A stretch of DNA of 64,000 bases, taken from Spirochaetota bacterium (GTDB taxonomy: Bacteria; Spirochaetota; Spirochaetia; Treponematales; UBA12059). Numbering within the stretch: the stretch's first letter is position 1; each line of letters opens with the position of its first letter. The position numbers were made by a program, and so were the translations under genes. Shown here one piece after another: positions 5,533-38,081 of the stretch. The notes beneath the pieces are model-generated. The model saw only the letters and a program-made list of their open reading frames with translations, searched no databases and had not been told where the DNA came from. The stretch is taken from NCBI GenBank assembly GCA_018816345.1, contig JAHIWG010000173.1:1-64000 (forward strand), given 5' to 3'.

Positions 5533-6489
5533 TTACTTCCTGCTCGCCGTGAGCCTTCGCATCGCGAGGACTCCCGCGAGCAACGTCACGAAGGTGATGG
5601 TGGCGATGGCCGCGCCCAGCCCCATGTCGGGAATGCCTACGGGGTGCTTCCCCGCTATGCCGGTGCGATAGAAATACGTGCCTAGTATGTCGGCCGAGTA
5701 ATTGGGCGCGCCGTTGGCCCCCGCCATGGCGTAGACCACGTCGAAGGCGTTGAAGTTGCCCGTGAACGTCAGTATTCCCACGACGCCCATCATCGGCACG
5801 AGGATGGGCAGCTTGATCAGCTTGATGACCTGCCATCCGCTGGCCCCGTCTATCTGGGCGGCCTCGAAATAGTCCTCGGGTATGCTCTGCAGGGCCGCGG
5901 TGAATATCATGGTCGGGATGCCTACCCACTGCCAGCTCGATACCAGCGAGATGATAGGCAGGGTCGTCTCCTCGAGCCCCAGCCAGGGAAGGGCCAGGGC
6001 GCGCAGGCCGATCCTCTCCAGGAGCAGGTTTACGGGGCCGAAATTCGGGTCGAGCATCAGCTTCCAGAGGAAGCCCGTGACGACTATGGCCAGCGTCGCC
6101 GGTATGAAGATGACCGTCCTGAAGAATCCGACGCCCCTGAGCCTCTTATTGCTCAGCATCAGCGCGAACATGAGCCCGAGCGAATTCTGGACGAGCATGT
6201 GAACGGCGAAGAAAATCCAGGTGTTGCCGAACGCGCCCCAGAAACGAGGCGCTATGTCGACGTCGGAGAACAGCTTCTTGTAGTTATCGAATCCGACGAA
6301 GGTATCGAGCCTGAAGCCGTTGCCCGTATAGAAGCTCAGCTTGAGCGAGGCCAGGAGGGGGAAGGCCATGAACGCCACGTAGACGGCCAGCGCGGGAAGG
6401 ATATAGAGGAACCAACTAGGTCGCCGATAGATTCCCACTCCCCAATACGAGCGGCGGGCCGTCCCCGGCTTGTCGGAAGCATGCGTCAT
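5533..6489 (-). CDS. Sugar ABC transporter permease (MalF/UgpA type)
   Basis: A 318-aa permease with an N-terminal cytoplasmic tail (about 1-25), a first membrane segment (WFLYILPALAVYVAFMAFPL) and a CUT1 coupling loop starting at Glu209 (EAAQIDGASGWQVIKLIKLP). It forms the transmembrane heterodimer with the following MalG-type gene. It is separated from the upstream binding-protein gene by a strong hairpin at 6510-6541. Confidence 0.92.
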   Translation of the reverse strand: MTHASDKPGTARRSYWGVGIYRRPSWFLYILPALAVYVAFMAFPLLASLKLSFYTGNGFRLDTFVGFDNYKKLFSDVDIAPRFWGAFGNTWIFFAVHMLVQNSLGLMFALMLSNKRLRGVGFFRTVIFIPATLAIVVTGFLWKLMLDPNFGPVNLLLERIGLRALALPWLGLEETTLPIISLVSSWQWVGIPTMIFTAALQSIPEDYFEAAQIDGASGWQVIKLIKLPILVPMMGVVGILTFTGNFNAFDVVYAMAGANGAPNYSADILGTYFYRTGIAGKHPVGIPDMGLGAAIATITFVTLLAGVLAMRRLTASRK

Positions 6490-6509
6490 TAGAACCGTCC
6501 TTAGGAAAG

Positions 6510-6541
6510 GCGAGTCCCGGCCCGCCGAGGCCGGGACTCGC
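6510..6541 (-). terminator. Intra-operon hairpin (attenuator or mRNA stabiliser)
   Basis: Perfect 13-base arms, gcgagtcccggcc (6510-6522) and its complement (6529-6541), with a six-base loop, lie between the binding-protein gene and the first permease gene. No T run follows. Hairpins here commonly protect the binding-protein mRNA and lower permease expression; that role is inferred. The same layout recurs at 18123-18146 and 45138-45196. Confidence 0.65.
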
Positions 6542-6568
6542 AGGATGCTAGCGTATCGGAGAAAAGGA

Positions 6569-7804
6569 TCAGTACGTATACCACTTGGCGAGGCCGGCGG
6601 CGAAATCGTCCGCGGCCTGCTGGGGCGTCCTCTTCCCTCCCAGGACGGCGATGGTGCTAGCCGTGATCAGGTCGTACCCGGACGGGTTCCCGGTGTTCAG
6701 GCGGGTCCAGCTGAACCTGACGTCGGTATCCCTGCCGTCGTTGAAGGACAGGAACGACTTGACCGCCGGATTGGAGAAGGGGATAGCCTTGGAGGCCTTG
6801 GCCATCGGGAAGAACCCGGTGAAATTCTCCGCTACCGACGCGATGCCCTCGTCGCTGACGAGCCACGCGACGAAGGTCTTCGCGGCGGCTATGTTCTTCG
6901 ACTTGGGATTGATCGCCATGCCGGTATCGGCGTGGAAGACCTGGGCCTGCTTCATCCCCTTGGGAGCGGGCGCCGCGAAAACGCCGTACTCGAGGCCGGC
7001 GGCCTTCATGTGCTCGGGGATGGTCCAGGAGCCGTCGAACATCATGGCGGCCTTGCCGAGCTGGAACATGACCTTGGACGAGTTATAGTCCACGGCCGCG
7101 TAGCCGCGGGGCAGATAGGGCGCGAGGTCCTTGATCGCCTGGAATACGGCGACTACCGCCTTATCGTTCCACTTCTTAGCCCCGGATTCCAGAGCCTTGC
7201 GGCCGGCCGCGCCGCCGACGTAGGTAGGGGCGAGGGTCTGGAAAACGACCTCGTTGATGTCCCACTCGTCCTTCGTGCCGTTGGCGAAGGGTATGATTCC
7301 CTTGGAGCTCAGTTTCTTGGCCGCGGCGAGCAGGTCTTCCCACGTCTTGGGCACGTCGATCTTATTATCGCGGAACAGCTTGATATTGTAGTAGATGCCC
7401 TGGCTGATGGCGAAGAGCGGCATGCCGAACGATCGGCCGTCGTCGGATTGCCAGAAGAACTTGGAGGCCGCGTCGAACTTGCCCATGAACGCCTCGGCGC
7501 TCAGGTCCAGCATGAACCCGTCCTTGAACAGCGTCTTCCCGACGTCGCCCGAGCGGGCGTAGAAGACGTCGGGCCCCGTGCCGCTCTCGAGCTGGAGCCT
7601 CAGCGTGGCGTTATAGTCGGGAGGGTTAGTCGGGTCGAATTTCACCTGGATGCCGGGATAGGCCTTGTTGAAGTCGGCGATGAGGCCTCGCCATTGGGCG
7701 ACGTCGTCGGTCCTCCACGATCCTACCGTTATGCTCTGCGCGGCGACGGAACCGGCCATTACCAGGACCATCACGGCGAAGACGATCAGTCTCGCTCGCT
7801 TCAT
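6569..7804 (-). CDS. Extracellular sugar-binding protein of ABC transporter
   Basis: A 411-aa periplasmic solute-binding protein of the family 1 (MalE/UgpB-like) type. The Sec signal peptide is residues 1-22 (hydrophobic FAVMVLVMAGSVAA, then QS). The mature part has the usual bilobed pattern, including DFNKAYPGIQVKFD near the N terminus and a late Trp/Pro-rich hinge. An aaaggag ribosome binding site precedes ATG at 7804. It is the first gene of the operon and is followed by a 13-bp hairpin, as expected for a binding protein made in excess. The ligand is unknown. Confidence 0.93.
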   Translation of the reverse strand: MKRARLIVFAVMVLVMAGSVAAQSITVGSWRTDDVAQWRGLIADFNKAYPGIQVKFDPTNPPDYNATLRLQLESGTGPDVFYARSGDVGKTLFKDGFMLDLSAEAFMGKFDAASKFFWQSDDGRSFGMPLFAISQGIYYNIKLFRDNKIDVPKTWEDLLAAAKKLSSKGIIPFANGTKDEWDINEVVFQTLAPTYVGGAAGRKALESGAKKWNDKAVVAVFQAIKDLAPYLPRGYAAVDYNSSKVMFQLGKAAMMFDGSWTIPEHMKAAGLEYGVFAAPAPKGMKQAQVFHADTGMAINPKSKNIAAAKTFVAWLVSDEGIASVAENFTGFFPMAKASKAIPFSNPAVKSFLSFNDGRDTDVRFSWTRLNTGNPSGYDLITASTIAVLGGKRTPQQAADDFAAGLAKWYTY

Positions 7805-7855
7805 GCGTTGCTCCTTTGAATAAGATATCGTCTCGATAGTGTAAGGCCGTCCTCG

Positions 7856-7950
7856 GTATCGCGATACGGTTGCCTAGTACCCGGAATGTACTCGATTTGT
7901 ACTAGCGGCCGCGGTTCCGCGGGGAAGCAGGCGCCGGCCGGTTCCGGCGC
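7856..7950. promoter_or_regulatory. Divergent control region with palindromes
   Basis: Between the divergent binding-protein gene and the isochorismatase-DUF885 gene lie a perfect 12-base palindrome (GTATCGCGATAC, 7856-7867), a 7-base inverted repeat (ctagtac 7874-7880, gtactag 7899-7905) and a GC-rich hairpin (gcgccgg 7931-7937, ccggcgc 7944-7950). The first two are plausible regulator sites for the sugar operon. I could not identify a convincing -35/-10 pair. Confidence 0.4.
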
Positions 7951-8028
7951 CCGGTATTGCCCGCCGGGCGCATATGCCGTAGCATTGCTGTATGCGCGAA
8001 GCCGGCAAGAACCGGCGGGGAGGCGATA

Positions 8029-10449
8029 ATGCCAGGGAAGAATCGCTCGGGCAGCTCGGTAAAAACGGCTCTCGTCAAGTCGGCGATCGCGGTAACGCTG
8101 GCCGCGGCGCTCGGGGCGACGGCTTGCCGTTCCGGGGGCCCGGGGACGGACGGGGCGGCGACGCCGCCCGAATACGGCGAAACCAGGCCGGAAGCCCCGC
8201 GCTGGACGGCGGACCGCGGTACGGCCCTCGTCGTCATGGACGTGCAGGAGGCGTATACGCCGGTCGTCTCGCAGGCGGCCGTCTTCAGGAACATACAGGC
8301 CCTGGTCGCCGCCGCCGACGAGGCTGGCGCCCCCGTGTTCTGGGTCTATACCGACTCCGACGCGTCCCGGATGGGTAGCAGGCTTTTCGAGCTCTCTTCC
8401 CCCTTCGTCGTCGGCCGGGGCCACGAGCGCGTCGTGAAGACGGGGCAGAACGCCTTCTCCGGTACGGGCCTCATAGAGGCGCTCAAGGAAGCGGGCGCCG
8501 GGAGGCTCGTGTTCTGCGGCCTCGCGAGCGACCAATGCGTCAAGACGAGCGTCGAGAATTCGGCGGCGCTCGGGTATAGGACGGTCGTAGCCTCCGACGC
8601 GCATACCGTCCCTAGGGGCGGGGGGGGAGCGGCCGCGATGTCTAGGATGAACGACCTATGGCGGGCGGATCCGAGGATAGAGCTGATGCCTGCGGCGAGC
8701 GTCGACTTCGACGGCCGGCCTCTCTCGGCGCGGGGCCTGGGGGCGGGCGACTGGATCCATTCCGAGGCCTTCTCCCGGTTCCTCGACTCGGCGTACCGGC
8801 CCATCCTCGCCCGCTCCCCCGAGGCCGCGACCCAGCTCGGGTTATCCTCCTGGGCGGGCCTGGACGATACCGGGCTCGACGGGCTATCAGCGGAATACTC
8901 AAAGGAGACGGGCCGCCTGGAGAAGGAAGCGCTCGAGGCGCTCGAGGCCTACGGCATGGCCGGAGCGTCGCAGGGCGACAGGCTCAGCTACGACGCGACC
9001 CGGAGGGCGCTTTCGGACTCCGTCTCGCTCCGGCGCTACGCGGACCTGGCCTACCTCGTCAACCCGACCGTGTTCGGCGTCGCGTACTCGGCGCAGGACC
9101 TATTCTCGTCGATCCATCCTCTGAAGGAGGAGGCTGACGCGCGGTCGTACGTCGCGAGGCTATCGGGACTCGGGGCGAAGATAGACGAGGCGACGGCCTT
9201 CCTCGCGCGCGCGGCCTCGAAGAGGGCTACGGCGCCCCGCGTCGTCCTGGAGAGCTCGCTCCCGGACATACGCCTCGTCGCCTCGGGCTCGCCTAAGGGC
9301 ACGGTATTCTACGAGTCCCTGGCGCGCGGGCTCGGGGCCATGCCGGGCCTGGACGCCGCGGCGAAGGAGGGCCTGCTTTCCGAGGCGGAGCGCGTCATAG
9401 GGCAGGCCGTGATCCCCGCCTATGGCAGGCTCGCGGACGAGACGGCGAGGAGGATAGAGAAGGCCCCCGAGGAGATAGGCCTCTGGAAGGTCCCCGGTGG
9501 CGACGAGTACTACCGCGCACTCCTCGCGGCCAAGACGACCACGGGCCTCGCGCCCGACGAGATACACGAGATGGGCCTGGCGGCCCTCGCGCGCATCCAC
9601 GCCGAGATAGTCGAGGCGGGCTCGAGGACGGAGCGCTTCCGGGGAGATACGGCCGCGGAGGTCGTCGGCAAGGCCTTCGGGGCGGCCGGCGCTGTCGGAG
9701 CCGGGGACGCGCTGGAGGGCTATAGGGACCTGCTCGCGGCGGCCGAGGCGCGCGCCCGTCCGCTCTTCCCCGACTATCCCGCCGCCCCGGTGGGAATAGC
9801 CGCGGCGCCCCAGGGGGGCTACTACCAGCCCGGGGCGATAGACGGCTCCACGCCCGGCGTGTTCTACGTCGCCAGCGGCGCCGGGGCGAACCGCGCCGGC
9901 ATGCCCACGCTCCTCCACCACGAGACCGTCCCGGGTCACCACCTTCAGATAGCCTCGAGCGCGGCCCTCGACCTGCCCGTGGCCAGGAAGCTCCTCTATT
10001 TCGAGGCCTACGTCGAAGGCTGGGCCCTGTACGCGGAGCGCCTCATGGCCGAGGAAGGCGCCTACGCCGACGATCCGGCCGGCGATATCGGGCGGCTGCA
10101 GGCCGAGGCCTTCCGAGCGGCCAGGCTCGTCGTCGACACCGGCATCCACGACAGGCGCTGGAGCCTGGGGCGGGCCGTCGACTTCATGGTCGAGCAGGGG
10201 CTCCTTCCTAGGCAGGCCGCGCGCTTCGAGGTCATACGCTACGCGAGCCTACCGGCCCAGGCCACGACGTACTACGTCGGGTTCCTGACCATACTGAGGC
10301 TCCGGGACGATGCCAGGCGGGAACTGGGCGAAGGGTTCAGCCTCCCGGCCTTCCATAGGACGGTCCTATCGTGCGGCCCCGTTCCGTTAGACGTGCTCGA
10401 AGGCGTCGTCGCCAGGTGGATCGCGGAATCGAAGGCGGAGCGGCGATAG
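8029..10449 (+). CDS. Lipoprotein fusion: isochorismatase-like hydrolase plus DUF885 metallohydrolase
   Basis: An 806-aa predicted lipoprotein (signal peptide to the ATAC lipobox, Cys33) with two enzyme domains. The first (about 60-235) is a cysteine hydrolase of the isochorismatase/nicotinamidase superfamily with an intact triad: Asp71 (VVMDVQEAY), Lys137 (RVVKTGQNAF), Cys170 (ASDQCVKTS). The second (about 240-800) is a DUF885-type domain with the zinc motif HHETVPGHH (His630 to His638), a family thought to be metallopeptidase-like. I chose 8029, not an in-frame ATG at 7957, because ggggaggcg precedes it and the signal peptide then begins properly. Fusion of these two domains is unusual. The envelope location suggests amide-substrate degradation outside the cytoplasm. 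The exact substrate is unknown. Confidence 0.85.
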   Translation: MPGKNRSGSSVKTALVKSAIAVTLAAALGATACRSGGPGTDGAATPPEYGETRPEAPRWTADRGTALVVMDVQEAYTPVVSQAAVFRNIQALVAAADEAGAPVFWVYTDSDASRMGSRLFELSSPFVVGRGHERVVKTGQNAFSGTGLIEALKEAGAGRLVFCGLASDQCVKTSVENSAALGYRTVVASDAHTVPRGGGGAAAMSRMNDLWRADPRIELMPAASVDFDGRPLSARGLGAGDWIHSEAFSRFLDSAYRPILARSPEAATQLGLSSWAGLDDTGLDGLSAEYSKETGRLEKEALEALEAYGMAGASQGDRLSYDATRRALSDSVSLRRYADLAYLVNPTVFGVAYSAQDLFSSIHPLKEEADARSYVARLSGLGAKIDEATAFLARAASKRATAPRVVLESSLPDIRLVASGSPKGTVFYESLARGLGAMPGLDAAAKEGLLSEAERVIGQAVIPAYGRLADETARRIEKAPEEIGLWKVPGGDEYYRALLAAKTTTGLAPDEIHEMGLAALARIHAEIVEAGSRTERFRGDTAAEVVGKAFGAAGAVGAGDALEGYRDLLAAAEARARPLFPDYPAAPVGIAAAPQGGYYQPGAIDGSTPGVFYVASGAGANRAGMPTLLHHETVPGHHLQIASSAALDLPVARKLLYFEAYVEGWALYAERLMAEEGAYADDPAGDIGRLQAEAFRAARLVVDTGIHDRRWSLGRAVDFMVEQGLLPRQAARFEVIRYASLPAQATTYYVGFLTILRLRDDARRELGEGFSLPAFHRTVLSCGPVPLDVLEGVVARWIAESKAERR

Positions 10450-28462: not shown

Positions 28463-30103
28463 CTATCCCAGGAACGGATACCGCCAGTCCCGCGCGGGCG
28501 CGAAATTCTCCTTGATGGTCCTGGGGCTCGTCCACCTGACTAGGTTGAGGAACGAGCCGGCCTTGTCGTTGGTCCCGGAACCCCTCGCGCCGCCGAAGGG
28601 CTGCCGCCCGACTACAGCTCCCGTAGGCTTATCGTTGATATAGAAATTGCCCGCAGCGTGCCTGAGCGCCCCGGTCGCCGCGACGATGTCCGCCCGGTCG
28701 CGCGCGAAGACGGCCCCCGTGAGCGCGTACGGCGACGTGGAGTCGACGAGCGCGTAGGCCGCGGCCATATCGGACTCGTCGTAGGCGTACGCGGTGAGCA
28801 CCGGGCCGAATATCTCCTGGGCCATAGGCTCGGAGCGCGGATCGTCGCTCACTATGAGGGTCGGGGCTATGAAGAAGCCTTCCGACTTGTCGTAGGTCCC
28901 GCCCGCTACTATGCGGCAGGAGGTGTCGGTCCTGGCCCGCTCGATATAGCCTACGATCGCGTCGAAGGCGGCCTCGTCTATGACCGCGTTGACGAAATTG
29001 CCGTGGTCCGTCGGGGAGCCTACGCGAAGGCTCGATATCTCCGCGGCCAAGCGCTCGACGAAGGGCTTCGCGGACGAGCGCGGGACGTACAGGCGAGACG
29101 CCGCGGAGCATTTCTGGCCCTGGTACTCGAAGGCGCCCCTGACGCAGGCGGCAAGCGCCGCGTCTTCGTCCGCGTCGGGATGCACGAGGATGAAATCCTT
29201 GCCTCCGGTCTCTCCGATTAGCCTGGGATACGCCCTGTACGAGGATAGGTTGTCCGCTATTCCCTTCCAGAGGCTATTGAAGACGGCGGTCGAGCCGGTA
29301 AAGTGCAGGCCGGCCAGGTCGGGCCTCGAGAGCATCCCCGCGCTTACGGCCCGGGCCGAGCCCGGGACGAAGTTTATTACGCCCGGGGGCAGGCCAGCGG
29401 CCTCGTAGAGGCGCATGAGGACCCAGTTGGATAGCACCGACGACGACGCCGGCTTCCAGACGACGGTATTGCCCATCAACGCGGGAGCCGAGGGCAGGTT
29501 GGCCGCGATGGCTGTGAAGTTGAACGGAGTGACCGCGTAGACGACGCCGTCGAGAGGCCTATAGTCGACGAGATCGCGCTCGCCCGGGCCCGAGCGAGGC
29601 TGTTCCGCGTACAGGCGCTCGGCGAGGGCCGGGTTGATGCGGAAGAAGTCTGCTGTCTCGCAGGTGGAGTCTATCTCCGCCTGTTAGGCGTTCTTGGACT
29701 GGCCGAGCATCGTCGAAGCGTTCAGCGCCTTCCACCAGCCCGACGATATCAGCTCGGCGGCCTTGCGGAATACGGCCGCCCGTTCCTGGAACGGCGTCTC
29801 GGCCCAGCCGGCGGAGGCCCTGGCCGCGGCGTCGGCCGCCGCCAAGGCCTCCGCCTCGCCCGCCTCGTGGTAGCGGCCCAGGACGAGCGAGCGGTCGTGA
29901 GGCGCCCGAATTTCCTTGAGCCGTCCCGTCCGGACCCGCTTTCCGCCTATCACCAGGGGAATCTCCATCGGGTTCGCCGCCATGGCGCGCAGCTCGGCGT
30001 CGATGGCGTCGCGCTCGGGCGAGCCGGGCGAGAACGAGCGTACGGGCTCGTTGGCTGGAAGCGCCGGGATCGGCTCCTGCCCGTATAGGAATGAATCGTA
30101 CAT
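28463..30103 (-). pseudogene. pruA: 1-pyrroline-5-carboxylate dehydrogenase, interrupted by one in-frame TAA
   Basis: The reading frame of a full-length (about 545-residue) PruA-type aldehyde dehydrogenase is open except for TAA at 29684-29686 (codon 140). It falls in MLGQSKNA*QAEID, where homologues carry a single residue (often aromatic or hydrophobic), so one base change from TAC or TAT explains it. Catalytic Glu298 (IGETGGKD) and Cys332 (GQKCSA) lie after the stop and are intact. The enzyme normally oxidises glutamate semialdehyde to glutamate in proline breakdown. AAGGAG precedes ATG 30103. A real nonsense mutation, a base-call error, or stop readthrough are all possible; the rest shows no decay, which favours a recent mutation or an error. 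Confidence 0.88.
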
Positions 30104-30354
30104 GCCATACTCCTTTCCAAATGTAGCGGGAGGTCGCGCCCTTTCGGGCCCGGCCCATCGGCTCCGCGCCATGGCCCGCGGCCGGGGACGGACGCGTGGC
30201 TGTAGGCCGCGACGGAGCTCGAAGTATGGTCTAAAAAAGATCGAGGCCCCGGAGTCGACCGGAGCGAACCGCCGACGGCGGCGATGGATTCGGTATACCA
30301 CCTGATATATCAGAATACTAGTAGTACGCGAAGAAGTACAGCGAATAGACTCCA

Positions 30355-32361
30355 TTACCAGGCGATAGCGAAATTCGTGTATACGGTATCGTCTATCGTC
30401 GCGGAGGTATTCCCCTGAGTGAAATAGTACGCCCAGACCCTCGGCGTCTCTCCCGTCTTAAAGGACGCCTCCACACTTCGTCTCTGGATCCGCATCTCCA
30501 GGCAGCCGTCGCCGAATTTATACGGGAACCCCTCGGAGGCCCGAGACCATCGTTCAGGGCCGCCGTTCTGGTAGTCGGCCTTTAGGACCTGCGACATCCA
30601 GGCTCCTTGCCTATATTCCACATGGAACGCGAAGGTGACCCTCGAGCCGTTTTTCTGCGTATCCCCTATGAGCCTTAACGCGTACACGACCTCTCCCTTG
30701 GGCGACTGCGCCGGCCTGCCGTCCGCGAAGTCGAGCATCACGTACAGGTACTTGTCGTCATAGGCGATATAGGCAGCCTCGATATCGGTGCCCGGCTCGG
30801 AGGGTTGTCTATCGTCGTTAGCCCGATCGCCGCTCGCCGGCGCTATACCGGCCCAGTCGTCCAAGAGCCCGTCGACCTTGATGGTCCTCCGGGGCACGGC
30901 ATAGGCCTGCGCCGCGGAGGATGGAGCGCCCGACGCCCCGGCGGCCGAATCGTCGGCTATCATCTTGACCTGGACGCGATTGGAGACTCCGGCCTCGGTG
31001 ATATTGACTGTCCTGACCAGGGTCTTGAATCCGTTCTTCTGCAACTCTATCTTATGAGGCTCGAGCGACAAGGGCAAGGTATTAGCCTGCGGCAGTTGCC
31101 CGGCGTAGAGCCCGTCGACGCTCAGGAACGCGCCGTCGATATCATCGCCTACGATATATAGATACCCGAACAAGGCCGCGGGCCGCACGGTGACTACGGT
31201 CGATTCCCCGGGTACGGCCTGGAAGGAGACCTCGGGGCTAGGGCCGTAGCGCTCCGGGCCGGATGACGACTTGACTACGTGGACGCCGGGCTCGTCTATC
31301 CGGACGGTCACGGGAGCGGCGCCTACGTGGGCTCCGTCCAGCCAAATCTGGACGGCCTCCCCGACCGGCTCGCTCACGACGGTCACCGTAGCCGGTAGCG
31401 GGGCGAGCCTCAGCTCGGCCGTCCTAGGGGAATCGCCTACGCCGACCGACAGCTCCAGCGAGGCCTCGGCCCGCCCGCCCATGGTAGCCGAGACCCGATG
31501 CGCCCCGGGGGCGACGAGGCCCGTCCACGGCGATCGGCCGACGGCTAGGCCGTCGACGACGACGCTCGCTCCGGCGGGCTCGGTCGTCACCGCCAGGGGC
31601 ACCGGAGACGCCTTCAAGGCGGCCGATATAGCGAGCGCGTCCCCGTCCTCGCCCTCTACTACCTTTACGAAGGGCTCGTAGCCGGCAAGCCTGACAGTAA
31701 GCTCGTGCCTGCCCGGCCTGAGCGCCTCGAACCGGGCGGGAACGGGGACAGGCGCCGCTCCGTCGAGGGAGGCGGCCGCGCCGGCGGTATCGCAACCGAC
31801 GGAGAGTCTGAACGCGCCGGACGAGGACGGAGCGAGCAGGGACTTACGCCCGTAGATGACGGCGAGGCTAAAGGTTACGCCGGGGGCCTTAGCCTCGGCC
31901 TCGGCGGACTGCACGGCGGCGTAGGCCTTCTCCGCGAGGCCCTTGCGCCCGTATATGGCGGCCAGGGCCAAGTGGAGGCCGGGAGCCGGCCGCCCGGCGG
32001 CGACGGCCTCGGACAACGCGGCGACTAGCGAGCCTTCGGCCTCGGCGAGGAGCCCCGCGGACTCCAGCTCGGCGATGGCGCTCTCGACGGCGGCTACGTC
32101 GGCCTCGGTGGTCGCGGCCAGGGCCCCGGCCACGACGGCGAGCACGGCGGGGGACGGCGCCTCCTCGGCGGCCGGATCCTGGGCGGCCGGCTCCTCCGCC
32201 GCCGGGGTCGCGACGGGATCGGAGGGCGCCGCGGCGGGCGGAGCCGCGGCGGGCCCTGGAGCGGCGCGAGAGCAGGCGATAGCGCAGGACAGCGAAGTCG
32301 CGATAACGATAGCGATAGCGACGGCCGCGTGCCGGCCGAGAAGCGACGTTGCGATCCTCAT
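30355..32361 (-). CDS. PEGA-domain lipoprotein with CBM9-like C terminus (paralogue B)
   Basis: A 668-aa predicted lipoprotein (signal to AIAC, Cys30) with a Pro/Ala-rich linker and helical repeats (to about 180). Four PEGA-like beta domains follow (about 185-450, for example VTTEPAGASVVVDGLAVGRSPW). A C-terminal beta-sandwich domain (about 485-668) begins RTIKVDGLLDDWAGI and contains DDKYLYVMLDF, the pattern of CBM9/DOMON-type carbohydrate or ligand binding domains. It is the last gene of a four-gene operon and is clearly paralogous to the first (34190-36091). It is probably displayed in the periplasm or at the outer surface. Function is unknown; GGAGG lies 5 bases before the ATG. Confidence 0.82.
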   Translation of the reverse strand: MRIATSLLGRHAAVAIAIVIATSLSCAIACSRAAPGPAAAPPAAAPSDPVATPAAEEPAAQDPAAEEAPSPAVLAVVAGALAATTEADVAAVESAIAELESAGLLAEAEGSLVAALSEAVAAGRPAPGLHLALAAIYGRKGLAEKAYAAVQSAEAEAKAPGVTFSLAVIYGRKSLLAPSSSGAFRLSVGCDTAGAAASLDGAAPVPVPARFEALRPGRHELTVRLAGYEPFVKVVEGEDGDALAISAALKASPVPLAVTTEPAGASVVVDGLAVGRSPWTGLVAPGAHRVSATMGGRAEASLELSVGVGDSPRTAELRLAPLPATVTVVSEPVGEAVQIWLDGAHVGAAPVTVRIDEPGVHVVKSSSGPERYGPSPEVSFQAVPGESTVVTVRPAALFGYLYIVGDDIDGAFLSVDGLYAGQLPQANTLPLSLEPHKIELQKNGFKTLVRTVNITEAGVSNRVQVKMIADDSAAGASGAPSSAAQAYAVPRRTIKVDGLLDDWAGIAPASGDRANDDRQPSEPGTDIEAAYIAYDDKYLYVMLDFADGRPAQSPKGEVVYALRLIGDTQKNGSRVTFAFHVEYRQGAWMSQVLKADYQNGGPERWSRASEGFPYKFGDGCLEMRIQRRSVEASFKTGETPRVWAYYFTQGNTSATIDDTVYTNFAIAW

Positions 32362-32376
32362 CCTAGCCTCCGACGT

Positions 32377-33633
32377 TTATGGACTATTCTTAAGGTATTC
32401 CTCGTGCTCGGCTACGGCCGCCTTTATGCTCTCCAGCGTCATGGCTATGGCCGCGGCGTCCAGGGCGCCGGGTTGGACCGACAGGTACTCGGAGAGGCAC
32501 GCCTCGGCGTCCCGCAGCGTCGCCAGCCTTAGGGCCGGGTCGGGCTCGGCCTGCGCCATGATCGCGCACAGCGTCCCCCCCGCGATCCTAGACTCAGCGT
32601 GGCGGGCGTCGGCGGCCATCGCCGCCTTATAGTAGGCCAACGCCGACCCAAGGTCGGCCCCTTCCCCGAAGCGCTCGCCGGACGGGGAGAATTCGAACGA
32701 GAGCCCGAGATGGTATAAGGCGTCGGCGTCGCCGGGCTTCAGCTCGACGCAGCCCTCGAGGAGCCGCCTGGCCGAGTCGTAGTCCTGGGCGTCGAGCCTG
32801 AGGAGCGCGAGGTTATACGAGGCCCGATGATCGCCCGGATCGAGGTCCGTCAGCCTGCGGTACGCCGCCTCGGCCCGCTCCGGCCGCCCCATGGCCATGT
32901 ACGCGTCCGCCAGGAGATGCCAGGCCATCGAGAACGAAGGGTCCCGGGTGACCGCGGACTCTAGGAGCTTGGCTCGCTCGGCCTGGTCGGCGCTGGCGAG
33001 CGAACGATTGTACATGCCGTAGGCGTCCTGGTCCTCGGTGGGCCTCGCGGACAGGCGCTTTAGCTCCAGCTCGCCGAGCCTCAGGGACAGGGCCTCCGCG
33101 ACCGCCATCGCCGCGGCGTCCTGCAGGCCGAAGAGCTCCGCGGGATAGGCGCCTCGGAACTCCCTGGCCAGGGCGACGGCTCCAGAGTTGACGTGCACGA
33201 GCCTGACGTTGCACGAGACTGCTCCCCCGGCCTGGGTTACCGAGCCCAGGAGGGCGTAGTCTATCGAGACCACCGAACCGGCCCTGGCGAGCGTGGCGGC
33301 GTCGAACAGGCCCGACGCGTTCCTCTCTAGCCGTAGCTCGGAGGCCAGGCGGTCGAACTGGGAGCGCTCGTATATCTTTACGCGCTTGAGGCCGACCAGC
33401 TTCGTCGTGAGCGCCTCGGAGAAGCCCTCCCCCAGGTACGAGGCCTCGGGCGAGGCGTTGGTGCCGAAAGGGAACACCGTCAGCACGAGGACCCGATCCG
33501 ACGCCGCTTGCGCCGCCTGGGAGCGCGCCGCGGGGGCCTGCGCCGATAGAGGCGGGGCGAGGAGGGCCGAGGCGACGCACGCTAGCGCGAGGGCGACGAG
33601 CCTCCGGGGCGCCGCGCGCGGAGCGGCTCCCAT
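32377..33633 (-). CDS. CsgG/FlgO-like protein with TPR C terminus
   Basis: A 418-aa secreted protein (signal peptide about 1-28, ending PLSAQA). Residues about 40-190 match the CsgG/FlgO fold used by outer-membrane secretion and flagellar-associated lipoproteins (VKIYERSQFDRL, AGSVVSIDYALLGSV, VNSGAVALAREF). Residues about 215-400 contain at least three TPR repeats (DPSFSMAWHLLADAYMAMGRPERAEAAYRRL). Its start shares one base with the stop of the upstream CsgG-like gene (TGATG). It lies between two PEGA lipoproteins and probably builds or senses the same envelope complex. No lipobox Cys is seen. Confidence 0.82.
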   Translation of the reverse strand: MGAAPRAAPRRLVALALACVASALLAPPLSAQAPAARSQAAQAASDRVLVLTVFPFGTNASPEASYLGEGFSEALTTKLVGLKRVKIYERSQFDRLASELRLERNASGLFDAATLARAGSVVSIDYALLGSVTQAGGAVSCNVRLVHVNSGAVALAREFRGAYPAELFGLQDAAAMAVAEALSLRLGELELKRLSARPTEDQDAYGMYNRSLASADQAERAKLLESAVTRDPSFSMAWHLLADAYMAMGRPERAEAAYRRLTDLDPGDHRASYNLALLRLDAQDYDSARRLLEGCVELKPGDADALYHLGLSFEFSPSGERFGEGADLGSALAYYKAAMAADARHAESRIAGGTLCAIMAQAEPDPALRLATLRDAEACLSEYLSVQPGALDAAAIAMTLESIKAAVAEHEEYLKNSP

Positions 33634-34157
33634 CACGAGAAGTCCTCTTCGACTAGATCCGCGAGCTCCTCCTCTATCTCGAATATATCCTCCGCGTCCC
33701 CGTACGAGCTTCCCGCGTAGACTATCTCCGCCGTCTCGACGTCGACGACGCGGCACGACAGGCGCACCTGCCCCCCGACCACCGAGGCCTGGCCCAGGAG
33801 GACGAAGCGGGCGCCGGCGAGCTTGCCGACCTTGGCGGCGGTGCCCGGGTCGACGAGGCCCCCCAGGGACAGCTCGAGCTCGGAGACCACCTTCTCGAGC
33901 GCGGCGCGCTCCAGGGGCCTCACGACGCCGCCGCGCAGGAAGGCCTCGGTCAGCGCCGCCGGCACGTCGGAGGCCAGCGCCTCGTAGCCCTGGACGCTCG
34001 AGCGCACCTCGAAGTCGAAGATGGCGAGCCGGACCGGCTCCCCGCCAAAATGCTCTCCCTCAGCGTCGCCGGCGGGCGCCGGGCCGTCGCTTACGCAACC
34101 GATCGCGAGCAGCGCGACGGCGAAAGCCGCCGCAAATGCGTTCTTCATCGCTCTCAT
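33633..34157 (-). CDS. Small CsgG-like lipoprotein
   Basis: A 174-aa lipoprotein (signal peptide to AIGC, Cys21) with one CsgG-like domain: AIFDFEVRSS near the start, RPLERAALEKVVSELEL in the middle, and FVLLGQASV then VDVETAEIVYA. CsgG relatives include outer-membrane channel formers and regulatory lipoproteins; this one is too short for a full channel. It is the second gene of the operon and overlaps the TPR-containing CsgG-like gene. An alternative start at 34148 is possible. Confidence 0.8.
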   Translation of the reverse strand: MRAMKNAFAAAFAVALLAIGCVSDGPAPAGDAEGEHFGGEPVRLAIFDFEVRSSVQGYEALASDVPAALTEAFLRGGVVRPLERAALEKVVSELELSLGGLVDPGTAAKVGKLAGARFVLLGQASVVGGQVRLSCRVVDVETAEIVYAGSSYGDAEDIFEIEEELADLVEEDFS

Positions 34158-34189
34158 AGCCTTATCCGCCTTCCTTTGTCTCGGCTTCT

Positions 34190-36091
34190 TCAGAAGCTGA
34201 TTGAAACTTCCGGTCCTTGCGTCACCTTGCCTTGATCGTCATAGAGATGCACCTGGAGTCCGACGACAGTATACACGAGAGCCGACCGCGGGATCTTCAA
34301 TTCCAGGTACCGATCGCTCGAGCGCCCGGAAAAACCATTGGCGATCGTCCGGCTCTTCTTCGCCACCCAATCGTCGAACACGAGGTTGAAGGATTTTTGC
34401 TCGGATCTGTTATAGTAAGCGATGAGCGCTCCGTCACGCCGTCCCATCGCGTCGACGGAGTTATAGAACACTAAGTTATATTTATATTTACCAACTCTTC
34501 CATCGGTGGTTTCCAGAAGACAATAGACGTACTGCTCATCGCTCGCCAGGTAGAGGCCCGAGACATTGCCGACGTTCCCCTTCGACCACGCGCCCGGCGA
34601 CATGGCCTCGAATAGAGCCGCGACGCCGATCCAGTCGTCCGCCTTGCCGTCTATCCTCGGGGTAAGCCTAGACAGCGCGATAGGCGAAGAGGTCGGCGAT
34701 GGCCGCACGGGCTCGAGCCTCATCGGCCCCGAGAGGAACTTGATAGAACGCTCGAAAACGGTCTTGCCTCCCGCCACGACCTTGACCATGTGAGGCCCGA
34801 CGGCGTACTCGACCGGCCCGAAGGGCACGATGCCGGCCTTCTTGTCGTCCACGTAGACGGTCGAGCCGTCGGGGAAGCCGCCGCTCGGGGCCGATACGGC
34901 GCTCATCGTATCAGATAGGTTCACGGTCAGCCCGCGCGACTCGCCCACGGCGAGCATGACGACGGCCAGGTCCTTCGGCTCGTAGACGGAGCCGTCGGGC
35001 GCTCGATAGTAGTCCGAGGCCAGGCGGTACTCCCCGGACGGAAGGTCCCGCATGGTTAGGGGCAGGACGCCCACGTCCATGCCGTTAGCCCGGATGGGCA
35101 GCCCGGAAGGCTCTCCGGAGAGGGCGAGCGAGGCCGAGCCGTAGACGAGCTCCTTGAACACGGTAGCCGAGCCGGCGCCGATGGCTAGCGTCACCTCCTC
35201 CGACGCCGGCTCGAGCCCCCGGAGCGAGAAGCCGAGGCGATAGTCACCCGGTTCCAGCGGCCCGCGCCACGGCGTCTCTCCCAGAGCCTTCCCGTCTATC
35301 GTTACCGTGGCGCCCGAAGGATCGCTATCGACCGAAAGGACGACCGGCAGGGGCGTCAGCTCCGCGACGAGTTCCAGGAAGGCGCCGTCGCGCCCCTCGA
35401 CGGCCTCGCTCCACGGCTCGTACGCCGGATGGGAGACGACGACCTCGCGGCGCCCGGGCCTCAAGGCCGCGAAACGCGCGGTAGCGGCCTGGGCCGGGCT
35501 TCCGTCCACGCTCGCCACGGCGCCGGGGACGTCGCATCGGACCGATAGGGAGAAGCCGCCCGCGGCCGGCGCTAGCAAGGCCTTGCGGCCGTGGATCGCG
35601 GCCAGGCTGAAGCTGACGCCCGGAACCCGGGCGGACCGCTCGGCGGCCTCCACGGCGGCGTAGGCCCTGGCGGCCAGCCCCTTGCGGCCGTAGACGCTCG
35701 CCAGGGCCAGGTGGAGCCCCGGAACCTGGCGTCCAGCGGCCTCCGCGTCCGCTATGGCGGCTACGAGCGAGGCCTCGGCCTCGTCGAGGCGGCCTTCGGA
35801 GACGAGCGCGTCGACGGCTCGCTCGAGTCCCTCCGCGTCGTCGTCTGTCTCCGCGGCCAGGGCTGCGCGCACGAGGGCCTCGACCCCCGTACCCGGATCT
35901 CGGGCCGCGGAGGCCGCCGTCCCGCCTATAGCGCCGGGCGCGGGGACGACGGGAACATCAGCGATAGCGGGCGTGGCGGGGAGCGTATCCGGAGGTCGTC
36001 CCTCCCTGGAACAGCCGAGGAGCGAGCCTAGCGCGATCATGGAGACGGCGACCAATGCTATTCCCGAACCAAACCTCGAACGCCTCGCCAT
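34190..36091 (-). CDS. PEGA-domain lipoprotein with CBM9-like C terminus (paralogue A)
   Basis: A 633-aa predicted lipoprotein (lipobox LLGC, Cys27). A helical repeat region (about 60-160), three or more PEGA-like domains (about 165-440) and a C-terminal beta-sandwich (about 470-633, LTPRIDGKADDWIGV, SDEQYVYCLLE) are visible. The region VSFSLAAIHGRKALLAP through the first PEGA repeat matches VTFSLAVIYGRKSLLAP in the last gene of the operon, showing a tandem duplication around the two CsgG-like genes. Gaggagg lies 9 bases before ATG 36091. The role is unknown; peptidoglycan or surface-polysaccharide contact is a reasonable guess. Confidence 0.82.
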   Translation of the reverse strand: MARRSRFGSGIALVAVSMIALGSLLGCSREGRPPDTLPATPAIADVPVVPAPGAIGGTAASAARDPGTGVEALVRAALAAETDDDAEGLERAVDALVSEGRLDEAEASLVAAIADAEAAGRQVPGLHLALASVYGRKGLAARAYAAVEAAERSARVPGVSFSLAAIHGRKALLAPAAGGFSLSVRCDVPGAVASVDGSPAQAATARFAALRPGRREVVVSHPAYEPWSEAVEGRDGAFLELVAELTPLPVVLSVDSDPSGATVTIDGKALGETPWRGPLEPGDYRLGFSLRGLEPASEEVTLAIGAGSATVFKELVYGSASLALSGEPSGLPIRANGMDVGVLPLTMRDLPSGEYRLASDYYRAPDGSVYEPKDLAVVMLAVGESRGLTVNLSDTMSAVSAPSGGFPDGSTVYVDDKKAGIVPFGPVEYAVGPHMVKVVAGGKTVFERSIKFLSGPMRLEPVRPSPTSSPIALSRLTPRIDGKADDWIGVAALFEAMSPGAWSKGNVGNVSGLYLASDEQYVYCLLETTDGRVGKYKYNLVFYNSVDAMGRRDGALIAYYNRSEQKSFNLVFDDWVAKKSRTIANGFSGRSSDRYLELKIPRSALVYTVVGLQVHLYDDQGKVTQGPEVSISF

Positions 36092-36139
36092 CCTATCGAA
36101 CCTCCTCGAGCTATCGTCGGACCGAAATAGCATTAAATG

Positions 36140-36168
36140 ATTCTTTATCCATTTATACGCGCAGTCAA
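36140..36168 (-). promoter_or_regulatory. Promoter of the PEGA/CsgG operon
   Basis: Minus-strand TTGACT (complement of 36163-36168), 17-base spacer and AAGAAT (complement of 36140-36145), about 50 bases before the first lipoprotein gene. The -10 is a weak match. Confidence 0.4.
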
Positions 36169-36194
36169 GGCGTTTCCGATCGTCATAGTATCGA

Positions 36195-36223
36195 TTTACA
36201 GCGCGCCGATATACGCTTATTAT
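36195..36223 (+). promoter_or_regulatory. Promoter of the chemotaxis receptor gene
   Basis: TTTACA (36195-36200), a 17-base spacer and TATTAT (36218-36223) face the receptor gene, giving a leader of about 40 bases that includes gggaggg before the ATG. It is back to back with the operon promoter. Confidence 0.6.
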
Positions 36224-36269
36224 CGTACCCCACGGGTTCGATGGAGCAGTCCGATGCCGGGAGGGACTA

Positions 36270-38081
36270 ATGAGAAGAAGGATTCTGCCGAACGCGACCA
36301 TCCTAGTGAAGCTGGTCGCGCTAAGCGTCATAACGATCGCTATGGTCACCGCGCAATACGCGCTCGGATCCGCCGGCCTCCGGCGCTTCTCGACGACCCT
36401 GGACCAGATACAGAACGTGCACGTAGCGATGACGAGAGCCAGCTCGCGCCTCTCCATAGTCTGCTACGAGATGCAGGCCAGCCTCTATAAGGCCATCAAC
36501 TATAGCAGCCAGAAGTACGACCCGGCCGAGGTCACCGCCATGGTCGCCAATATCAAGTACTCCAAGTCGGCCGGCAACGATCTCGTGGCCCAGCTCGACG
36601 CGGGCTCCGGACGCTCAGAGGAGACGGACGGCCTCGTCGCGGCGGTCAGGGAAGCCTACGACGACTACCTGCGCTACCTCTCCGTGACCATATCGTTCGT
36701 GGAGGACGAGCCGGCGATGGCGCTCTCCTCGGTCCCCGAGACCGAGGAGAAATTCTCGGCGCTCTCCCAGCGGCTCATGACGTTGGAACAGTCGGTGAAG
36801 GATCGCGAGGACGTAGCCTCCATGGAGGCCATGATGGCGACGTCGGCCCTCGAGCGGAGCCTCCTCGCGGTCGTCGCCCTGGCTATAGCGGCGCTGGCGC
36901 TCGTCGTAGCCCTTACGGTCGTCTCCATCAGGCGGCCCATGGGGCGGCTCCTGGCCCTGCTGTCCACCATGGAGGAAGGGAACTTCGGTTCCAAGGCGGA
37001 GCTCTACGGCAAGGACGAGATGGGAAGGATGGGCGCGAGCATAGACGCGCTCACGGATAGCCTCCGGTCCCTCCTGGGCACGGTCAAGGACCGGGTCGGG
37101 GAGCTCGACCGGGTCGGCCAGGAACTCTCGGCCAACATGACGGAGACGGGAGCCGCGGTCGTGCAGATCAACTCGAACATCGCCAGCACGCGCACCCGGC
37201 TGGAGGAACAATCGGCCTCGGTGAGCGAGGTCTCGGCGACCATCGAGGAGCGGGCCAAGGGCGACGCCGTGCTCTCGGAGCGCATCGAGGAGCAGTCCGG
37301 CGTGGTTAGCCAGTCCTCCGCCTCGGTGGAGGAGATGATAGCCAACATCGAGTCGGTCGCGAAGGCCGCCGCGGTAGCCAAGGCGACGAGCGACGAGCTC
37401 GTGGCCCTGGGCACCGACGGGAAGGCCAAGCTCGACGAGGTGCGCGACGCCGCGAGGGATATCTCCCAGCATTCGGAGAGCCTCGGCGAGGCGGCCTCGG
37501 TGATATCCGACATCGCCAGCAAGACCAACCTCCTCGCCATGAACGCCGCTATCGAGGCGGCGCACGCCGGCGACTCGGGCAGGGGCTTCGCGGTGGTGGC
37601 GGACGAGATACGCAAGCTGGCCGAGCAGTCGACGGCCCAGGCCAAGGACATTGCCGCCGGCCTCGGAAAGGTCTCGTCGTCGATAGGCACGGTGGGGCTC
37701 GCCGTGGAGTCCGCGGTAGAATCCTACGACTCGGTTCACGACAAGTCCGAGGCGCTCGGCTCCGAGGTCTCGCGGATTAGCGACGCGATGTCGGAGCAGA
37801 GGGAAGGCGGCCGCCAGGTGCTCGAGGGACTGGCCAGGCTCCGGGAGATAACGCGGGGCATAGCGTTCGGCGCCTCCAAGATGGCCGGGGGCAACCAGAA
37901 GGTGCTCGAGCAGGTCTCGAGGCTCGACGCGATCAACCGGGCCGTGGTGCAGAACAACGACGAGATAACGATAGGCACCAAGGAGATAAACAAGGCGGTC
38001 GCCGAGACGACTAACCTCGCCTCGCACACCGCGACGCTCATCACCGAGGTGAGGCTGGCCTCCGACCGCTTCTCCTTCTAG
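36270..38081 (+). CDS. Methyl-accepting chemotaxis protein
   Basis: A 603-aa transmembrane chemoreceptor. TM1 is about 12-32, an all-helical periplasmic sensor (about 35-190) follows, TM2 is about 196-218, then HAMP (219-270) and the cytoplasmic signalling coiled coil. The conserved tip around 414-450 ([37 protein letters not shown]) binds CheA and CheW. Its presence implies motility. Its ligand is unknown. The stop codon shares CTAG with the stop of the convergent metallopeptidase, so the two genes overlap by 4 bases. Gggaggg sits 6 bases before the ATG. Confidence 0.93.

Follow-up and report, generated by a model that had tools for sequence, protein, structure and literature searches.

Proteins of the CsgG fold are usually annotated by default as components of curli secretion. 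Related folds occur in LpoB, an activator of the penicillin-binding protein PBP1b, in the flagellar H-ring proteins FlgO and FlgT, and in PelC, a lipoprotein ring that binds the tetratricopeptide repeats (TPRs) of PelB; copurification of the latter two is lost once the TPR/stalk region is removed (PMC12141448). Here we describe a four-gene operon (A to D) of an uncultured Spirochaetota bacterium (assembly GCA_018816345.1), located within positions 1 to 64,000 of contig JAHIWG010000173.1, the whole stretch of DNA that was analysed and that we refer to as the window. The operon resembles the Pel pair in that a CsgG-fold lipoprotein without membrane hairpins (B, as PelC) stands beside a TPR protein (C). 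However, C comprises 418 residues, has a CsgG-fold domain of its own and lacks a β-barrel such as PelB carries at its C-terminus, and the operon contains no pel genes but two added lipoproteins with PEGA domains and CBM9-like heads, A and D. That A-B-C-D form a unit is well supported by the co-occurrence and linkage of their families. That they constitute one accessory envelope system, in which a CsgG-fold/TPR dock carries swappable lipoprotein heads, has in our view about an even chance of being correct.

Gene layout and domains of the operon

The original prediction for this locus described four genes of one direction with gaps of 32, -1 and 15 bases, and this layout was confirmed in the window. 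A, B, C and D are tightly packed on the minus strand; 32 bases separate A from B, the stop codon of B and the start codon of C overlap in TGATG (-1), and 15 bases lie between C and D. Shine-Dalgarno-like stretches precede A, B and D, and no terminator-like site was found in 29900-36500. Signal peptides and lipoboxes were read from the sequence. The genes and their domains are as follows:

34190-36091, minus strand: gene A, a 633-residue lipoprotein (lipobox LGSLLGC) with YGRK module, four PEGA domains and CBM9/DOMON-like head (Pfam and sequence)
35564-35884, minus strand: YGRK (degenerate TPR-like) module of A (profile match, E 3.2e-37)
34697-35554, minus strand: PEGA domains of A, four stretches, outer limits approximate (Pfam PF08308, 94.5 bits)
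34193-34675, minus strand: CBM9/DOMON-like head of A (alignment homology to the D head; fold taken from the D model)
33633-34157, minus strand: gene B, a 174-residue lipoprotein (LLAIGC) with a CsgG/LpoB/TolB-N-type domain without membrane hairpins (Pfam, 44.7 bits; AlphaFold model and structural matches)
32377-33633, minus strand: gene C, a 418-residue exported protein (signal peptide end SAQ) with a CsgG-like domain followed by TPRs (Pfam and sequence)
33067-33495, minus strand: CsgG-like domain of C, homologous to B (alignment)
32599-33027, minus strand: TPR region of C, limits approximate (Pfam TPR_16, 63.4 bits)
30355-32361, minus strand: gene D, a 668-residue probable lipoprotein (non-canonical lipobox, AIAC or SLSC) built as A (Pfam and model)
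31825-32145, minus strand: YGRK (TPR-like) module of D, six helices in the model (profile match, E 1.9e-37; AlphaFold model)
30952-31812, minus strand: PEGA domains of D, four, residues ~184-470 (Pfam, 85.3 bits; strands in the model)
30358-30897, minus strand: CBM9/DOMON-like head of D (Z 9.7-10.3 to CBM9, CBM74 and DOMON structures)

A and D share a build of lipoprotein signal, N-terminal helical module, four PEGA domains and C-terminal sandwich, and align at 36% over ~560 residues (E 1.9e-79). Their PEGA matches exceed the curated Pfam cut-off of 20.8 bits. The helical module of D contains the YGRK motif twice (LAAIYGRKGL and LAVIYGRKSL); the module looks like a degenerate TPR, and the YGRK modules of two relatives introduced below, L043 and G276, gave weak TPR matches. 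In the AlphaFold model of D (mean predicted local distance difference test, pLDDT, 76.6; predicted template modelling score, pTM, 0.38, so that the domain arrangement is uncertain) six helices occupy residues 71-176, small β-domains follow in a chain at 184-470, and a sandwich, the moderate-confidence part, spans ~527-668. The helical repeats, the several PEGA domains and the CBM9/DOMON-like sandwich proposed for these lipoproteins are thus borne out by Pfam and the model.

The structural matches show the modelled head to be of the CBM9/DOMON-like fold class. It matches CBM9 structures (7nwn, Z 9.8, 154 residues aligned, root-mean-square deviation 4.4; 1i82, Z 9.7, 152 residues, 4.3), CBM74 of Sas6 (Z 10.1, 20% identity) and the DOMON of ethylbenzene dehydrogenase gamma (2ivf_C, Z 10.3), and a profile of six heads also matches Sas6 (E 0.002). 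No Pfam model recognised the heads, and CBM9 matched none of six heads at E≤10; of the profile similarities that had been proposed, PEGA and CsgG are over cut-off, whereas CBM9 is not recovered. A haem-binding DOMON of the ethylbenzene dehydrogenase gamma type was considered and rejected, as no axial Met, Lys or His is invariant among the six heads. Within the PEGA region of A, one segment resembles the LIC10124-family lipoprotein of Leptospira (NF047815) with 24 bits, but this is far under the cut-off of 650 and the match lies outside the YGRK module. The idea that PEGA domains bind cell-wall material was not supported in this analysis.

B and C both exceed the curated Pfam CsgG cut-off of 20.8 bits, with 44.7 and 30.4 bits. 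The AlphaFold model of B (mean pLDDT 67, pTM 0.60; globular part mostly 59-87) has the topology β-α-β-α-α-β-β-β-α, and its structural matches show the modelled domain to belong to the TolB-N/LpoB/PelC fold class (TolB-N, Z 12.8; FlgT, 12.5; LpoB, 12.0; PelC, 11.9; LPHT ring, 11.7). The similarity to CsgG itself is weaker (Z 8.3-10.0), with large unaligned insertions and ~80 CsgG residues unmatched: B aligns to 115-121 residues spread over ~200 residues of CsgG, compared with 117 of 135 residues of LpoB and 118 of 138 of PelC. Strands 118-127, 130-139 and 144-154 of the model are connected by loops of 2 and 4 residues where CsgG has its membrane hairpins; neither of the two transmembrane β-hairpins is present in the model, and there is no room for them. 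In the domain of C that aligns to B the loops are equally short, and beyond this domain C consists of a helical TPR part up to the C-terminus. C is probably soluble because its signal peptide ends in SAQ and an A-Q ending is kept in most orthologues. A search of the PDB with the single B sequence gave no match; when a sequence profile of B was used, LpoB ranked first (E 0.003).

Co-occurrence and linkage of the three families

Orthologues of B, C and the YGRK module were detected in the same three of 393 genomes of the phylum (G000, G325 and G276). These belong to three different families, and one of the families lies outside the order. The thresholds are E≤8.6e-74 for C (next genome 1e-14), E≤1.9e-37 for B (next genome 1.5e-27) and E≤4.8e-34 for the YGRK module (next genome 3e-5). 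Assuming independence, two such sets of three would coincide by chance with a probability of ~1e-7, a figure that overstates the case because phylogeny is ignored. A sample of 23 genomes of the source family adds G022, a member of another genus, with all three families linked as A-B-C. Overall, the four-gene system is rarely kept among spirochaetes.

In a scan of 84,980 species, each represented by one genome, relatives of C occurred at six loci, all in spirochaete metagenome-assembled genomes. B and C are adjacent in the window, G022, G325, L041, L043 and L044, and both gene orders occur. A YGRK or CBM9-head gene lies beside B-C or C in the window, G022, G325, L041, L043 and G276. The prediction that the order is kept in other spirochaetes therefore holds for A-B-C in G022, for B-C-D in G325 and for the B-C pair in further loci. 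On the G022 contig (L039) A-B-C is followed by an unrelated SDR gene, and the A protein has no CBM9 head. G325, from another family of the order, also has a solo YGRK-PEGA-CBM9 gene elsewhere in its genome; its A was not seen because any A would lie beyond the contig end. At L041 a CBM9-like reading frame, a head fragment, lies directly upstream of B-C. At L043 the order is C-B, and the opposite strand encodes a YGRK-PEGA-LamG protein, a YGRK-FGE-sulfatase protein and two more genes, one of them for a small lipoprotein. In G276, C is divergent from a small lipoprotein of the L043 type and a YGRK-FGE-sulfatase protein, and another contig carries the same small-lipoprotein type with a YGRK-PEGA-SnoaL protein. 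B of G276 is near the end of one contig and C near the end of another, with no shared end sequence, and C-B adjacency was not seen there. Some genes of G325 and G276 are truncated where a contig stops, or are masked or interrupted.

The heads found on the YGRK module are thus CBM9-like in the window and G325, LamG and FGE-sulfatase at L043, and FGE-sulfatase and SnoaL in G276. Since these LamG, FGE-sulfatase and SnoaL heads occur on the same module in related species, it is the head that is exchanged and the proposed dock that stays constant.

Three side observations concern these loci. The small lipoprotein family (~150-170 residues) directly precedes a YGRK gene at L038 1554-2057, L043 13601-14056 and L086 6617-7132; the L038 copy has no Pfam match, and the family is possibly another component of the system. 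The protein between the two YGRK genes of L043 (10923-12494) has a caspase-like look (LIIYLSSQGI...) and no Pfam match. Downstream of C-B at L044, a FecR-domain-like protein and another possibly CsgG-like protein, both judged by eye, are encoded at 5586-9454.

Proposed dock and alternative functions

In the system that we propose, B would be the membrane-anchored lipoprotein and C its exported partner, together forming a periplasm-facing docking platform that is most likely an oligomer, as PelC is. A and D, lipid-anchored as well, would attach to the B-C platform by their TPR-like YGRK modules, and their four PEGA domains would form a stalk that holds out the CBM9/DOMON-like head. This head would bind a ligand, and because the heads encoded in the window are CBM9-like, a glycan of the cell wall, the sheath or the environment appears the likeliest. 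The constant part would thus comprise B-C and the YGRK module, the variable part the head, and the mode of working would be like PelC-PelB docking, minus the barrel. The physical complex, its ring or oligomeric state, its stoichiometry and the membrane leaflet that holds it are inferred. A wider proposal, that spirochaetes possess a modular envelope system in which a dedicated YGRK docking module fits one CsgG-fold/TPR platform with different extracytoplasmic heads, is tentative, and we put it somewhat below an even chance; the module might then act much as a shared tag that fits many cargos to one machine.

Several observations weigh against such a system. In the family sample, G014 has B alone, with no A, C, D or YGRK protein found; this B can act alone or be a recent relic. 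C-B at L044 has no YGRK neighbour within 9 kb, and contig C41 of the source genome carries a third, solo YGRK-PEGA-CBM9 gene (L006 9045-10976) far from any B-C. SnoaL and FGE heads do not usually bind sugars, and in the heads no conserved sugar-binding residues were demonstrated, one Trp alone being invariant in the alignment of six. The docking of YGRK on B and C is, moreover, argued from analogy. The sugar-sensing or surface-anchoring complex first suggested for the operon suits the CBM9-like heads found here. It does not suit the FGE-sulfatase- or SnoaL-headed relatives, and because of these the general role is better described as a dock for swappable heads. As a side observation, the solo gene on C41 is flanked on one side by a metal-transport (HMA-domain ATPase) cluster and on the other by a peptidyl-prolyl isomerase gene.

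Alternatively, B could act like LpoB on a penicillin-binding protein, with C, A and D tuning it or sensing the wall. B shares the fold, size and lipid anchor of LpoB, which is also its best profile match in the PDB, and Pfam LpoB scores 24.9 bits on B against a cut-off of 22.3. However, the NCBIfam LpoB equivalog reaches only 22.9 of the 110.55 bits of its cut-off, B is paired with C and A/D, and the operon holds no penicillin-binding protein gene. The same fold also serves TolB, PelC, FlgT and others, and of the spirochaetes sampled the majority build a wall but almost none has the system. We consider a regulator of peptidoglycan synthesis unlikely. The same holds, to a similar degree, for an accessory of polysaccharide export or modification, in which B would form a PelC-like ring on the TPRs of C and guide a glycan bound by A and D. 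PelBC provides the precedent for a CsgG fold combined with TPRs, the model of B is close to PelC, and CBM9-like heads would suit a glycan. On the other hand, C has no β-barrel, no synthase, deacetylase or glycosyltransferase is encoded in the operon, and the FGE-sulfatase and SnoaL heads elsewhere do not fit.

In a CsgG-type secretion system, B and/or C would be an outer-membrane channel that exports A, D or another substrate. Both proteins pass the Pfam CsgG cut-off and B is a lipoprotein like CsgG, but B lacks the membrane hairpins in its model and the domain of C is equally short, therefore they do not form a CsgG-type channel. Neither a barrel nor a curli partner gene (csgA/B/E/F) is found among the four genes of the operon. 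This alternative is largely refuted and very improbable, and with it falls the secretion-pore reading of the CsgG resemblance; the B-C pair is most likely not a pore. Very little probability likewise remains for a flagellar basal-body accessory with FlgO/FlgT-like H-ring parts, to which the CsgG/TolB-N fold class, the matches of B to FlgT and the LPHT ring, and a chemotaxis receptor gene divergent from A could point. Pfam FlgO reaches only 12.3 and 19.2 bits, under its cut-off of 22.6; of the predicted CsgG/FlgO likeness of the middle genes, Pfam recovers CsgG and the TPRs of C but not FlgO. The locus shows no tie to flagellar genes, the phylum is largely flagellated yet almost none of its sampled members has the system, and in G017 the receptor gene persists although the operon is lacking. 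That four unrelated envelope genes are neighbours by chance, as their absence from seven other genomes of the genus might suggest, is barely credible given the translational overlap of B and C, the linkage kept across genera and families and, in the main, the coincident phyletic pattern.

The domain classes of the operon are all known. The open-access literature yielded no paper that joins the PEGA domain and CsgG, and no description of the four-gene combination, the YGRK module or the head exchange. The linked lipoproteins, with one anchor and exchangeable heads, might offer a testable example of a CsgG-fold/TPR platform that presents varied binding functions in a diderm envelope.

Evolution and surroundings of the locus

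The operon is absent in seven other searched genomes of the genus. G015 and G019 keep the flanks, with the aldehyde dehydrogenase gene joined directly to a peptidase gene, and G017 keeps them with a ROK-type gene joined to the chemotaxis receptor gene. In G014 the lone, intact B (L101 6987-7499; C17:239010-239498) lies between a homologue of the window's 40-42 kb gene and a dehydrogenase gene; it is 77% identical to B of the window at the protein level, with a ratio of nonsynonymous to synonymous substitution rates (dN/dS) of ~0.11. Because sister species keep the flanks without the operon and G014 keeps a lone B, the pattern suggests that genes of an ancestral operon were lost and that its role is accessory. 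A foreign island was considered and rejected: the GC content is 0.68-0.69 in the operon and 0.61-0.68 nearby, and the single B that G014 retains at this site favours loss over a recent gain.

In the tree of A/D relatives, A groups with the A-position protein of G022 (support 93/94) and the solo protein of the source genome with D of G325 (99/98). A clade of A and D is disfavoured, still not rejected (approximately unbiased test, p-AU 0.085). The similarity that had been taken as a sign of tandem duplication is real, but in the tree neither A nor D has the other as its closest relative, and a recent duplication is not supported since A groups with the G022 protein and D elsewhere. Because of these pairings, A and D are probably paralogues older than the genus.

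Upstream of A a single, weak promoter-like site was found, in the gap that separates A from the divergent chemotaxis receptor gene:

36140-36168, minus strand: weak sigma-70-like promoter match (9/12, consensus only)

The methyl-accepting chemotaxis receptor gene itself occupies 36270-38081 on the plus strand, and its G017 counterpart, which stands without the operon, shows 66% identity. On the other side of the operon, the minus-strand aldehyde dehydrogenase gene (1-pyrroline-5-carboxylate dehydrogenase-like, 28463-30160) has one in-frame stop near 29684; the frame is open in sister species (~570-630 residues), and the window copy is a pseudogene or carries a sequence error.

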